NCBI RefSeq assembly: GCF_034043515.1
Contig: NZ_CP138214.1
Location: 5,649,501 to 5,713,500, forward strand
DNA: 64,000 bases
DNA from: Pseudomonas sp. MUP55
GTDB lineage: Bacteria > Pseudomonadota > Gammaproteobacteria > Pseudomonadales > Pseudomonadaceae
Direction of reading: 5' to 3'
The notes beneath the pieces were generated by a model. It saw only the letters and a list, made by a program, of their open reading frames with translations, had not been told where the DNA came from and made no database searches. Numbering within the stretch: the stretch's first letter is position 1; each line of letters begins with the position of its first letter. This document shows positions 13,330 through 62,092 of the stretch, piece by piece. The position numbers and the translations under genes were made by a program.

Positions 13330-13336
13330 CGCCTCA

Positions 13337-13515
13337 CTCCCTGGCGTGTTTGCCAGTCGGCGATGTCCCGGAGCCGATTCGCACTACCCTGGAAGTTGCA
13401 CGTTGGGCTGGTGTGCATGTCCGCTAGACGGAAAGCCTTAAAGCCTACTGCTTCTTCCACCTTGAACTTTCGGGTTCAAGGGCTTAGTCGACAGCGGCTC
13501 TGCCGGGGAGCCTGA
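13337..13515 (+). ncRNA. ssrS: 6S RNA
   Basis: A non-coding interval of about 180 bases between zapA and fau, the standard location of 6S RNA, the global RNA regulator that binds sigma-70 RNA polymerase. Its 5' part (CCCTGGCGTGTTTGCCAG) and 3' part (GCGGCTCTGCCGGGGAGCC) could form the closing stem around a large central bubble. Recognisable internal segments are TTGCACGTTGGGCTGG and CTTGAACTTTCGGGTTCAAG, a perfect hairpin. The ends are estimated from the -10 element and the terminator, so they may be off by several bases. Confidence 0.85.
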
Positions 13516-28081: not shown

Positions 28082-28277
28082 ATAGGAATGACGTAATCAT
28101 TTATGGAGGGGGGAAATTAAGCTTTTGGCTTAATGAGGCCGCGCCGCAGAGAAGGCGACAGGATCGCGTACTAATCGAAAAGGAATGCGTCGGCGACGGC
28201 TTGCAGGGGGCAGTGGAGAAACCAGTGCGGGGCCGAATGTACCACCTGAGTTTCGGAGCGTCTAGCCCTGTTTTACC
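28082..28277 (-). promoter_or_regulatory. rho 5' leader region
   Basis: This 196-base stretch between the trxA terminator and the rho start must contain the rho promoter and leader. rho is autoregulated by premature termination in its leader in E. coli; that this happens here is assumption. No convincing -35/-10 pair or stem-loop was picked out by eye. Confidence 0.45.
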
Positions 28278-59346: not shown

Positions 59347-60093
59347 CTAAAGCTGTTGCATCATCTTGCGCACGCCAGCGACATGGCGCCGACTGACGAT
59401 CAAGGCATCACCATTGAGCCCCTTCAGAAAGAGCTGAAAGTGCCCCAGAGGCGTGCGTTGCAAGCGCTCGATTCGCTCGCGGGCCACCAGCGCATTGCGA
59501 TGGATACGCACGAAAAGGTCGCCGAACTCATCTTCAAGGGCTTTGAGCGGCTCATCGAGCAGCACTTCGCCCGCTTCGTGACGCAAGGTCACGTATTTGT
59601 GGTCGGCGATAAAGTAGACCACCTGAGCGAGGGGAATCAGTTCGATGCCCTTGCGGGTCCGTGCACTGATATGGCTGCGGGGGCCGTTTCCACTTTGGGC
59701 GGCAGGCTGGGTCAAGGCGGCAAGCTGAACGCGGCTGGGTCGCTCGGCCTTCTTCAACGCCTTGAGCAGGCTTTCGGTCGCCACCGGCTTGACGAGGAAA
59801 CTGACACCGCTGTCTTCCAGCGTCTGTGCAGAAAACTCTTCCTGGGCCGCGCATAACACCACGGCGGGTGGAGACTCGCGCTCACTCAAGCGGGCCGCGA
59901 CTTGCAGGCCATCGAGGCCCGGCATACGGATATCGAGCAACACCACATCCGGCTTGAGGCTGTCGATCAACGTCAACGCCTCCTCACCGCTGGTGGCACT
60001 CGGCTCAAGGACTGTATAACCCTCGAGTTCACTGACCAGACGGCTCAGTCGCTCGCGGGCTTGGGGTTCGTCATCAACGATCAGGACATTCAT
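59347..60093 (-). CDS. algR: AlgR, LytTR-type response regulator
   Basis: A 248-residue protein, the normal AlgR length. The receiver domain has the acidic pair Asp7-Asp8 and phospho-acceptor Asp54 in VVLLDIRMPG, with the conserved Lys in FLVKPVATE. The C-terminal LytTR DNA-binding domain contains ISARTRKGIELIPLAQVVYF and FVRIHRNALVARERIERLQR. AlgR controls alginate, twitching and virulence genes in P. aeruginosa. All key residues are intact, yet its cognate kinase gene upstream is degraded (see 60090-60530). ATG 60093 overlaps the last codons of the kinase remnant. Confidence 0.96.
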   Translation of the reverse strand: MNVLIVDDEPQARERLSRLVSELEGYTVLEPSATSGEEALTLIDSLKPDVVLLDIRMPGLDGLQVAARLSERESPPAVVLCAAQEEFSAQTLEDSGVSFLVKPVATESLLKALKKAERPSRVQLAALTQPAAQSGNGPRSHISARTRKGIELIPLAQVVYFIADHKYVTLRHEAGEVLLDEPLKALEDEFGDLFVRIHRNALVARERIERLQRTPLGHFQLFLKGLNGDALIVSRRHVAGVRKMMQQL

Positions 60094-60530
60094 ATTGCGC
60101 TGGATTCCTGCGTGAGTCTCGCACAAGGATAACGTAGACAGGTGCGGTGACTTGCGTCACAGCGATCCACGCTAAGACTAGTGCGAGCGGCAAAAAGTGC
60201 CCCGAGAGCGGCACCCAAATTTACCCGGACCTGTTCAATAGCGCCCAAAACCTGCTGCCTTAGCGCATCGTTGTAGGGTTTGCTGATACACAATCCGAAT
60301 ACCCCCCTTTTTTAATGGATAGTCTGGGCTCTGACCGCATCACCCGACTTTGGTGCATTCACACACTATCAGTCCAACTGTAGACGCTCGCCGAGACGAT
60401 ATTGCTCAATCGTCAAATATCGTTTCAATAAGTACCTGTTGCCAGTCTCGTCCTGGATGCGGTCGGCGGCAAGGCACTTAGCCATCCTTTGCACAAAAAA
60501 ATTGCCGCCCACCCACAGCATCGCGTCCGC
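60090..60530 (-). pseudogene. algZ: remnant of algZ (fimS) sensor kinase gene
   Basis: Between algR and argH, where algZ normally lies, only 502 bases remain instead of the ~1.1 kb gene. Two separated algZ-like pieces are visible on the minus strand. At ~60372-60440 the frame encodes YLLKRYLTIEQYRLGERLQL, the signature after the phospho-His helix of LytS/AlgZ kinases, and ends in TGA at 60369-60371. At 60090-60293 another piece encodes CISKPYN (N-box-like) and HRTCLRYPCARLTQES, which looks like the kinase C-terminus. Its stop overlaps the algR ATG (ATGA). The membrane domain, the His box and most of the ATPase domain are absent. Confidence 0.8.
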
Positions 60531-60595: not shown

Positions 60596-61990
60596 ATGAG
60601 CACCGACAAGACCAACCAGTCCTGGGGCGGCCGCTTCAGTGAACCCGTCGACGCCTTCGTCGCGCGCTTCACCGCCTCCGTCACCTTCGACCAGCGCCTG
60701 TACCGCCACGACATCATGGGCTCCATCGCCCATGCCACGATGCTGGCCAAGGTCGGCGTACTGACCGACGCCGAGCGCGACAGCATCATCGATGGCCTGA
60801 CCACCATCCGTGGCGAAATCGAAGCCGGTACCTTCGACTGGCGCGTCGACCTGGAAGACGTGCACATGAACATCGAGGCTCGCCTCACTGATCGCATCGG
60901 TGTAACTGGCAAGAAGCTGCACACCGGTCGCAGCCGTAACGACCAGGTGGCCACCGATATCCGCCTGTGGCTGCGCGATGAAATCGACCTGATCCTGGCT
61001 GAAATCACCCGCCTGCAGAAAGGTTTGCTGGAACAGGCCGAGCGTGAATCGGACACCATCATGCCCGGCTTCACCCACCTGCAGACCGCTCAGCCCGTAA
61101 CCTTCGGCCACCATCTGCTGGCCTGGTTCGAAATGCTCAGCCGCGATTACGAGCGCCTGGTGGACTGTCGCAAGCGCGCCAACCGCATGCCGTTGGGCAG
61201 CGCCGCGCTGGCGGGCACCACGTACCCGATCGACCGTGAGTACACCGCGCAGCTGCTGGGTTTCGACGCTGTCGGCGGCAACTCTCTGGACGGCGTGTCG
61301 GACCGTGATTTCGCCATCGAATTCTGCGCCGCCGCGAGCATCGCGATGATGCACCTGTCGCGTTTCTCCGAAGAGCTGGTGCTGTGGACCAGCGCGCAGT
61401 TCCAGTTCATCGACCTGCCGGACCGGTTCTGCACCGGCAGCTCGATCATGCCGCAAAAGAAGAACCCCGACGTGCCCGAGCTGGTGCGTGGCAAGAGCGG
61501 CCGCGTATTCGGCGCATTGATGGGCCTGCTGACCCTGATGAAAGGCCAGCCGCTGGCCTACAACAAGGACAACCAGGAAGACAAGGAGCCGCTGTTCGAC
61601 GCCGCCGACACCCTGCGCGACTCACTGCGTGCGTTTGCCGACATGATCCCGGCGATCAAGCCCAAGCACGCGATCATGCGTGAAGCAGCCTTGCGGGGTT
61701 TCTCCACCGCGACCGACCTGGCCGACTACCTGGTGCGTCGTGGCCTGCCCTTTCGTGACTGCCATGAGATCGTTGGCCATGCCGTGAAATACGGCGTGGA
61801 CACCGGCAAGGACCTGGCTGAAATGAGCCTGGAAGAACTGCGCCAGTTCAGCGACCAGATCGAGCAGGACGTGTTCGCCGTACTGACCCTGGAAGGCTCG
61901 GTGAATGCCCGCAACCACGTCGGCGGCACTGCGCCGGCGCAGGTCAAGGCAGCGGTCGCACGTGGTCAGGCCCTGCTGGCCAGCCGCTGA
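60596..61990 (+). CDS. argH: argininosuccinate lyase
   Basis: A 464-residue enzyme that cleaves argininosuccinate to arginine and fumarate. It has the fumarase-superfamily signature [12 protein letters not shown] with the catalytic serine. The N-terminal [19 protein letters not shown] and the [11 protein letters not shown] and [12 protein letters not shown] elements are also present. No other arg gene is in the window. It is divergent from algR/algZ remnant and convergent with the GST gene. Confidence 0.98.
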
Positions 61991-61996
61991 ATAAGA

Positions 61997-62087
61997 TGTG
62001 GGAGGGGGCCTGCCCCCCGATGGCAGAGTGTCAGGCAATACATGCGCTGGCTGACTCACCGCTATCGGGGGCAAGCCCCCTCCCACA
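61997..62087. repeat. REPIN between argH and GST genes
   Basis: Inverted REP pair with one change in the first arm (GTGGGAGGGGGCCTGCC). It sits between the converging argH and GST genes. Confidence 0.9.
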
Positions 62088-62092
62088 TTGGA

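Follow-up and report, generated by a model that had tools for sequence, protein, structure and literature searches.

The sensor kinase gene algZ has been lost repeatedly in Pseudomonas, about seven times if it was never regained, a number subject to uncertainty in the tree. What is left of the gene in front of algR retains the same short sequences across separate losses, and AlgR, the response regulator partner of AlgZ, has changed mainly in the beta4-alpha4-beta5 segment of its receiver domain in algZ-less lineages. From the remnant, the repeated loss, the retained sequences and the segment-specific relaxation, we infer a change in the control of AlgR. The window analyzed here is a stretch of 64,000 nucleotides from Pseudomonas sp. 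MUP55 (NZ_CP138214.1), in which the original prediction, made from sequence alone, placed a decayed algZ beside an intact algR (Table 1).

In the window, algR and argH are separated by 502 bp, and this spacing is occupied by the algZ remnant. It was searched by tblastn with the intact 355-aa AlgZ of a relative (row L017:638-1702), whose own algR-argH gap is 1264 bp. AlgZ codons 219-355 aligned across the window gap in a single gapped alignment (48.5% identity), which agrees with the predicted presence of two AlgZ-like pieces in the right order and strand. The strongest part covered codons 272-355 (60%, E 7.8e-23, window positions 60093-60347) and contained one internal stop. The predicted ATGA overlap of this C-terminal piece with algR is retained, and its final residues are CLRYPCARLTQESSAI; however, the piece is longer than had been stated, reaching back to codon 272. 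The first piece reads RYLTIEQYRLGERLQLD and is then ended by TGA. Intact relatives have TGG (Trp) at the same position (TTG GAC TGA in the window versus TTG GAC TGG), exactly as had been proposed. Position, order, strand and the ATGA overlap all identify the two pieces as remains of algZ; in P. aeruginosa the gene order is argH-algZ-algR-hemC.

At the DNA level, blastn against the intact algZ of row L190 detected two blocks in the window, island A and a 3′ block spanning roughly 60294 to 60090, the latter extending further at the protein level (codon 272, window position 60347). The algZ codons up to about 220, and again those from about 240 to 287, had no blastn match in the window. The transmembrane sensor part, the H-box and the N-box had no DNA-level match in the gap, and the H-box region (phospho-accepting His, around codons 166-174) had no counterpart there, the alignment beginning near codon 219. 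Most of the kinase gene is thus gone, as predicted. Possible leader remains upstream of the old algZ start were noted by eye and are weak. A terminator-like hairpin with a T-run lies between argH and algR (one found versus 0.4 expected), and a REP-like inverted repeat of the GGGGGCAAGCCCCCTCCCACA type was seen by eye downstream of argH. The window also contains a 6S RNA and a Pseudomon-Rho leader RNA, both ordinary features.

Table 1. Features of the window discussed in the text (window coordinates)
Feature	Position	Strand	Remark
6S RNA	13335-13513
Pseudomon-Rho leader RNA	28138-28237
algR	59347..60093	-	intact; 248-aa response regulator, REC + LytTR
AlgR residues 76-103, beta4-alpha4-beta5	59785..59868	-	relaxed in algZ-less lineages
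algR codon 82	59848..59850	-	Ala in the window; Thr in 83/83 algZ+ rows
Codon of phospho-acceptor Asp54	59932..59934	-	kept in 96/96 algZ-less rows
algZ 3′ remnant, codons about 272-355 + stop	60090..60347	-	ATGA overlap with algR start
Inverted repeat GTGAC-N4-GTCAC	60147..60160		in conserved 3′ block; expected 0.05 in window
AlgU-type promoter site GCACTT-N17-TCTTA	60173..60200	-	inside old algZ coding sequence, before algR
Island A, algZ codons about 221-240 (first piece about 218-240)	60370..60424	-	inverted arms CGATATT...AATATCG; TGA end for ancestral Trp
Element A, CGTCTACAGTTGGAC, core CGTCTACAGT	60372..60386	-	core invariant in algZ-less rows
Possible algZ leader remains	60442..60486	-	upstream of old start; by eye, weak
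Terminator-like hairpin with T-run	60503-60520	-	between argH and algR
argH	60596..61990	+	flanking landmark, divergent from algR
REP-like inverted repeat	61994-62090		downstream of argH; by eye

AlgR itself is intact, with Asp54 and the LytTR domain in place, and is an orphan in the window genome, where no other AlgZ-type kinase was found; both points had been predicted. A search of the whole genome with AlgZ matched only the remnant in the gap, leaving no relocated copy of the kind the prediction had allowed for, and the PF06580 profile gave 0 matches. That an assembly or sequencing error masks an intact algZ is extremely improbable, given that the genome is a single contig (5.95 Mb) and that many separately sequenced relatives share the remnant layout. 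All 24 algZ-less loci compared with intact algZ by blastn, including those of the P. putida group, matched in the same two places, and this recurrence, together with the core of element A in every algZ-less row, led us to reject both error and chance. In the P. putida group, little matched algZ of L190 beyond these two places.

The original prediction treated the loss as a feature of one strain; its scale is much larger. The AlgZ query matched 257 of 298 genomes of the genus at any level, and algZ was full-length in 88 of the 298 (among the matches listed), one of these 88 having a stop in the matched stretch. A single genome, G080, had algZ split over two frames, and the remaining 168 matching genomes held partial or weak algZ (among the matches listed). 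In other genera of the family, a full-length match was present in 76 of 89 genomes by hand count, and in 22 of these 76 the matching sequence is interrupted by one stop. Phylogenetic relationships were assessed with a hemC plus argH tree of 101 rows, each a locus together with its flanking genes; 80 of them are named records, and the window is included. The window belongs to a clade corresponding to the P. fluorescens subgroup, and none of its 17 rows has a full algZ. The sister of this clade consists of seven rows around P. fuscovaginae, all with full algZ. All ten P. putida-group rows of the tree were algZ-less.

The full/lost label requires at least six changes on this tree, and the starred branches force at least five. 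Assuming that algZ was never regained, there were seven losses on the 101-row tree, but 25 of the 98 inner branches are weak, and the exact number is therefore uncertain. The genome with the split gene corresponds to row L193, in which algZ is nearly complete (codons 3-285 and 284-355 in separate frames), owing either to recent decay of the gene or to an error in the assembly. AlgR of L193 is near the algZ+ consensus, with three differences in residues 76-103. This row was kept outside the full and lost classes in the 180-row count described below, was labelled remnant by an automatic rule in the tree, and was counted as holding algZ for the loss number. The outgroup row L110, with no argH in view, was counted as full in the 180-row count. 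One record titled Pseudomonas viridiflava (isolate p11.D4, L113) falls in the P. fluorescens subgroup and is probably mislabelled; the other P. viridiflava record (L144) sits far from it, near P. tremae and P. capsici.

The parsimony estimate of six changes is blind to gain versus loss. If algZ was lost once, long ago, and then reacquired by several lineages, the P. fuscovaginae clade among them, the apparently independent losses would be one event; the start of the remnant near codons 199-223 in many rows fits such a history. However, we consider it quite unlikely. Several regains would be required, and rows L191 and L150 hold an extra piece near codons 130-158 which is missing in the other algZ-less rows compared, implying that the deletion is not common to all algZ-less rows. 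Moreover, the longer remnant blocks are slightly closer to P. fuscovaginae-type than to P. syringae-type algZ (83 versus 80% identity in L191, 80 versus 78 in L150, 78 versus 74 in L121 and 75 versus 70 in L145), as vertical descent predicts, and AlgR of the P. fuscovaginae clade retains the ancestral segment. The short island A pieces did not discriminate between the two algZ types.

The AlgR comparison included 180 non-redundant rows (211 minus 31 duplicates), of which 83 had full algZ, 96 had lost it and one was split. In residues 76-103, the algZ+ rows showed 0-4 differences from the algZ+ consensus (median 1) and the algZ-less rows 4-20 (median 11), whereas the medians for algZ+ and algZ-less rows were 6 versus 8 in residues 1-75 and 6 versus 4 in the LytTR domain. 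Similar patterns were observed for pN/pS, calculated from phylogenetically separate tip pairs (21 algZ+, 23 algZ-less): 0.027 versus 0.246 in residues 76-103, 0.091 versus 0.083 in residues 1-75 and 0.061 versus 0.027 in LytTR. The relaxation is imperfectly confined, since residues 104-125 rise too (0.106 versus 0.195); values for residues 126-145 were 0.134 versus 0.060. The nonsynonymous share in residues 76-103 was 0.038 in algZ+ and 0.333 in algZ-less pairs (permutation p 0.0002), although pair shuffling leaves some shared ancestry and the rows are non-independent, with about seven losses behind the 96 algZ-less rows.

Secondary structure elements were taken from an AlphaFold model of AlgR (mean pLDDT 85, pTM 0.53), with beta4 at residues 77-83, alpha4 at 89-95, beta5 at 99-102 and alpha5 at 106-115. 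Nonsynonymous counts in algZ+ and algZ-less pairs were 0 and 22 in beta4, 1 and 29 in the following loop, 12 and 63 in alpha4, and 0 and 36 in beta5. No clear difference was found for alpha1 (24 and 30) or alpha5 (44 and 59), the ratio for alpha5 alone being 1.26 (interval 0.67-2.51). Neither alpha1 nor the DNA-binding LytTR domain was relaxed, and LytTR remains under constraint. Without AlgZ, AlgR has thus lost constraint chiefly in the stretch that runs from beta4 through the beta4-alpha4 loop and alpha4 to beta5, where Thr82 and Tyr99 are located.

Thr82 of AlgR has been proposed to contact phosphate, according to the part of a 2014 review that covers it (PMC4064291). Among the 96 algZ-less rows, residue 82 was Thr in 52, Ala in 38, Val in 3, Ser in 2 and Met in 1; all 17 rows of the window's clade have Ala82, so that the expected switch residue is absent there. 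P. putida-group rows have Thr82 in 10 of 10 cases, yet show 11-16 changes in residues 76-103. The phosphate pocket behaves differently: every one of the 96 algZ-less rows has Asp8, Asp54 and Lys102, 95 of them also have Asp7, and the window has all four. Remnants are well preserved in three single lineages, L191, L150 and L121, whose best pieces match AlgZ at 82, 77 and 69% identity; their AlgR proteins showed 6, 4 and 5 changes, respectively, in residues 76-103. Gap length and AlgR change were not correlated across the 96 algZ-less rows (Spearman 0.05, p 0.62). Neither the loss of Thr82 nor the change in beta4-alpha4-beta5 was noticed in the original prediction, which also overlooked what is likely algR promoter DNA in the remnant.

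The intact pocket, and a constraint on residues 1-75 unchanged by the loss of algZ, would be expected if another histidine kinase phosphorylated the algZ-less AlgR and the beta4-alpha4-beta5 changes were adaptations to new partners. We regard such rewiring as unlikely. The window genome has no PF06580 kinase (the search was limited to this type), and alpha1, the usual kinase-docking helix of receivers, shows no extra change. In addition, 44 of 96 rows have a residue other than Thr at position 82 (Ser in two of these), which a classical phospho-switch should not tolerate, and the changes, compared by eye, differ between lineages.

Sequence comparison suggests that the surviving algZ DNA likely carries control elements of algR, namely an AlgU-type site and element A. 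In the window, the first base of the AlgU-type site is 107 bp upstream of the algR start. With small variation allowed, the pattern was matched by 78 of 96 algZ-less and by 80 of 83 algZ+ rows, compared to 10 of 1920 shuffled sequences; 18 of the 96 algZ-less rows had no such site under the pattern used. The AlgU site of algR in P. aeruginosa is given as GCACTT-N17-TCTGA in the relevant part of the 2014 review (PMC4064291), from which the last five bases of the window site differ at one position; the same source places a second algR start at least 160 bp upstream. AlgU-activated promoters that control algR alone are located inside algZ, as stated in a 2026 paper (PMC13001225). No sigma-70-like site was detected in the gap by a promoter scan, and neither an Rfam search of the gap nor the plasmid records searched gave a match.

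The 10-mer CGTCTACAGT was found upstream of algR in 96 of 96 algZ-less rows (window included) and 45 of 83 algZ+ rows, at 150-368 bp from the algR start in algZ-less rows. The 15-mer of element A had one exact copy in the window genome; with two mismatches, it gave 3 matches versus 15 for a reversed control, so that a regulon-wide binding site is not supported. The arms of island A adjoin the 10-mer, and P. putida-group rows, compared by eye, keep the 10-mer without the arms. A further inverted repeat, GTGAC-N4-GTCAC, occurred in 78 of 96 algZ-less and 35 of 83 algZ+ rows and is a possible operator. In the gap alignment, the first nine algR bases were added to every row, and the last columns are invariant by construction.

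Synonymous-codon identity in intact algZ was 0.73 overall and 0.86-0.97 over codons 326-355, so that constraint at the DNA level is older there than the loss. Values were near the average for codons 316-325 (0.75-0.77), which contain the first hexamer of the AlgU-type site. Within island A, they were likewise near the average for codons 221-230, the first half (0.72-0.74), and higher for codons 231-240 (0.81-0.86). A retained small protein was also considered for the 3′ remnant, in which a 73-codon open frame recurs in many algZ-less rows. This candidate was rejected: pN/pS over codons 283-325 was 0.77 in algZ-less pairs versus 0.20 in intact algZ (gapped pairs left out; 16 of 23 algZ-less and 18 of 21 algZ+ pairs used), implying that the remnant looks non-coding now, and 17 of 96 rows were open for just 1-35 codons. 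Divergence of these codons in the remnant was low (pS 0.121), which suggests constraint as DNA.

These data also bear on another view of the locus, an ordinary pseudogene in which the islands are the slowest-decaying parts, AlgR drifts neutrally and function is unchanged. Synonymous sites of island A are indeed under only weak constraint in intact algZ, and residues 76-103, at a pN/pS of 0.246, have not reached 1. However, the core of element A persists in all 96 rows across separate losses, the more decayed lineages have no blastn match between the islands, and most of the relaxation of AlgR falls within a single structural segment, while alpha1 and LytTR show no increase. We therefore find this explanation very unlikely.

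The original prediction further proposed that the loss would rewire the control of alginate and motility in this strain, which remains a conjecture. The 2014 review reports that P. aeruginosa may not require AlgR phosphorylation for alginate (PMC4064291), and PilY1 had no match in the window genome. The window genome does have two PF13372 matches, representing alginate-export-type proteins. According to the sections of a 2018 P. aeruginosa study that deal with these genes (PMC5979040), FimS-AlgR activates the operon of the type IV pilus gene PilY1, minor pilins and PilY1 restrain FimS/AlgZ, and a fimS mutant retains about half of twitching; for the minor-pilin operon, AlgR phosphorylation is described as non-essential and small phosphate donors are suggested. 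Of the 88 genomes with full algZ (among the matches listed), 84 had a PilY1 match, as did 86 of the 209 without it (G080 apart; not corrected for shared ancestry). A simple rule that algZ goes with type IV pili is thus half true, since PilY1 is still present in those 86 genomes. No PilY1 match was found in seven genomes of the window's clade (G000, G004, G017, G052, G059, G186 and G296) or in eight P. putida-type genomes with short algR-argH gaps of 297-440 bp (G003, G007, G009, G015, G024, G025, G045 and G057).

Considering all observations, we think it probable that AlgR no longer switches under the control of AlgZ and that its output now depends chiefly on AlgU-driven expression, with its phosphate pocket kept. 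On this model, algZ was lost several times by deletion of its front and middle and drift of the rest, whereas the part of its coding sequence that drives algR would have been indispensable. This part would comprise an AlgU-type promoter within the final 110 bp and a second element at a greater distance from algR. In the window lineage, the retained sequences would act as algR promoters. AlgU, acting on the promoter that survives within the former algZ, would set the level of AlgR. The part of the receiver that once held the switch would be free to drift, with the acid pocket (Asp7, Asp8 and Asp54) and Lys102 staying and the DNA-binding domain unrelaxed. AlgR output would then depend mainly on the amount made, reflecting envelope stress via AlgU, and perhaps on small phosphate donors acting at Asp54.

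The perfect retention of Asp54, Asp8 and Lys102 implies that phosphate or Mg2+ still matters, which is awkward for a purely expression-set AlgR. This kept pocket is the main fact that the expression-set reading leaves unexplained. The simplest solution would be input from small donors like acetyl phosphate, which were reported to act on P. aeruginosa AlgR (PMC4064291). Further points against the model are the small number of losses behind the non-independent rows, the lack of correlation with gap length, the rise in residues 104-125, Thr82 in 52 of 96 algZ-less rows, the 18 algZ-less rows without the AlgU-type pattern, the near-average synonymous identity over parts of the islands in intact algZ and the absence of a sigma-70-like site. 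A more speculative possibility, which we rate as rather unlikely, is a receiver class arising after repeated kinase loss, in which a selected Asp-phosphate/Mg2+ pocket is kept and the Thr/aromatic switch and the beta4-alpha4-beta5 output surface are abandoned. AlgR would then sense a metal or a small phosphate donor through this pocket and act by another output mechanism, and element A could be the operator or promoter of an unnamed algR input.

Several known systems resemble the one described here. AlgZ(FimS)-AlgR of P. aeruginosa has the same AlgR architecture, a kinase gene upstream of algR and an AlgU-type GCACTT-N17 before algR (PMC4064291), as well as AlgU-driven algR promoters inside algZ (PMC13001225). 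In contrast, this kinase is gone in the window, its AlgR has Ala82 and an altered beta4-alpha4-beta5 segment, and PilY1 was not found in the genome. PprA, the AlgR of P. putida WCS358, is an ortholog from a species group whose ten tree rows are all algZ-less (WCS358 is outside the tree). PprA reportedly made an algR mutant of P. aeruginosa mucoid again, and the AlgR-ortholog section of the 2014 review is silent on a missing kinase (PMC4064291). Unlike the window, P. putida-group AlgR has kept Thr82 along with its changes in residues 76-103.

Orphan response regulators share the absence of an adjacent kinase and an intact output domain, but here the kinase remnant and conserved islands are visible and protein change accompanies the loss. 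Atypical (pseudo-receiver) response regulators are a known class, and AlgR of the window resembles them in the lost switch residue and changed switch segment. However, it still has the phospho-acceptor Asp (Asp54 in 96 of 96 rows) as well as the acid pair and the Lys, placing it outside this class. In the open-access literature, we found no description of algZ loss, the retained islands or the matching AlgR change; subscription papers were mostly outside this search, and earlier notice is possible. The case is thus an orphan response regulator beside a kinase pseudogene, interesting by its repetition: several losses, the same DNA kept and the same receiver segment changed.

The action of AlgZ on AlgR, and the surface involved, have been hard to demonstrate. 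As of 2014, interaction and phosphotransfer between the two were undemonstrated, according to the part of the review concerned (PMC4064291), and a two-hybrid interaction of FimS/AlgZ with AlgR was reported for P. aeruginosa in 2018 (PMC5979040). The natural, repeated deletion of algZ and the accompanying protein record point to beta4-alpha4-beta5, not alpha1, as the part of AlgR held fixed by AlgZ-dependent signalling. They also suggest caution, in that models of AlgR phosphorylation from P. aeruginosa may not transfer to P. fluorescens and P. putida. The locus looks like a clear case of a gene reduced to the part that serves its neighbour.
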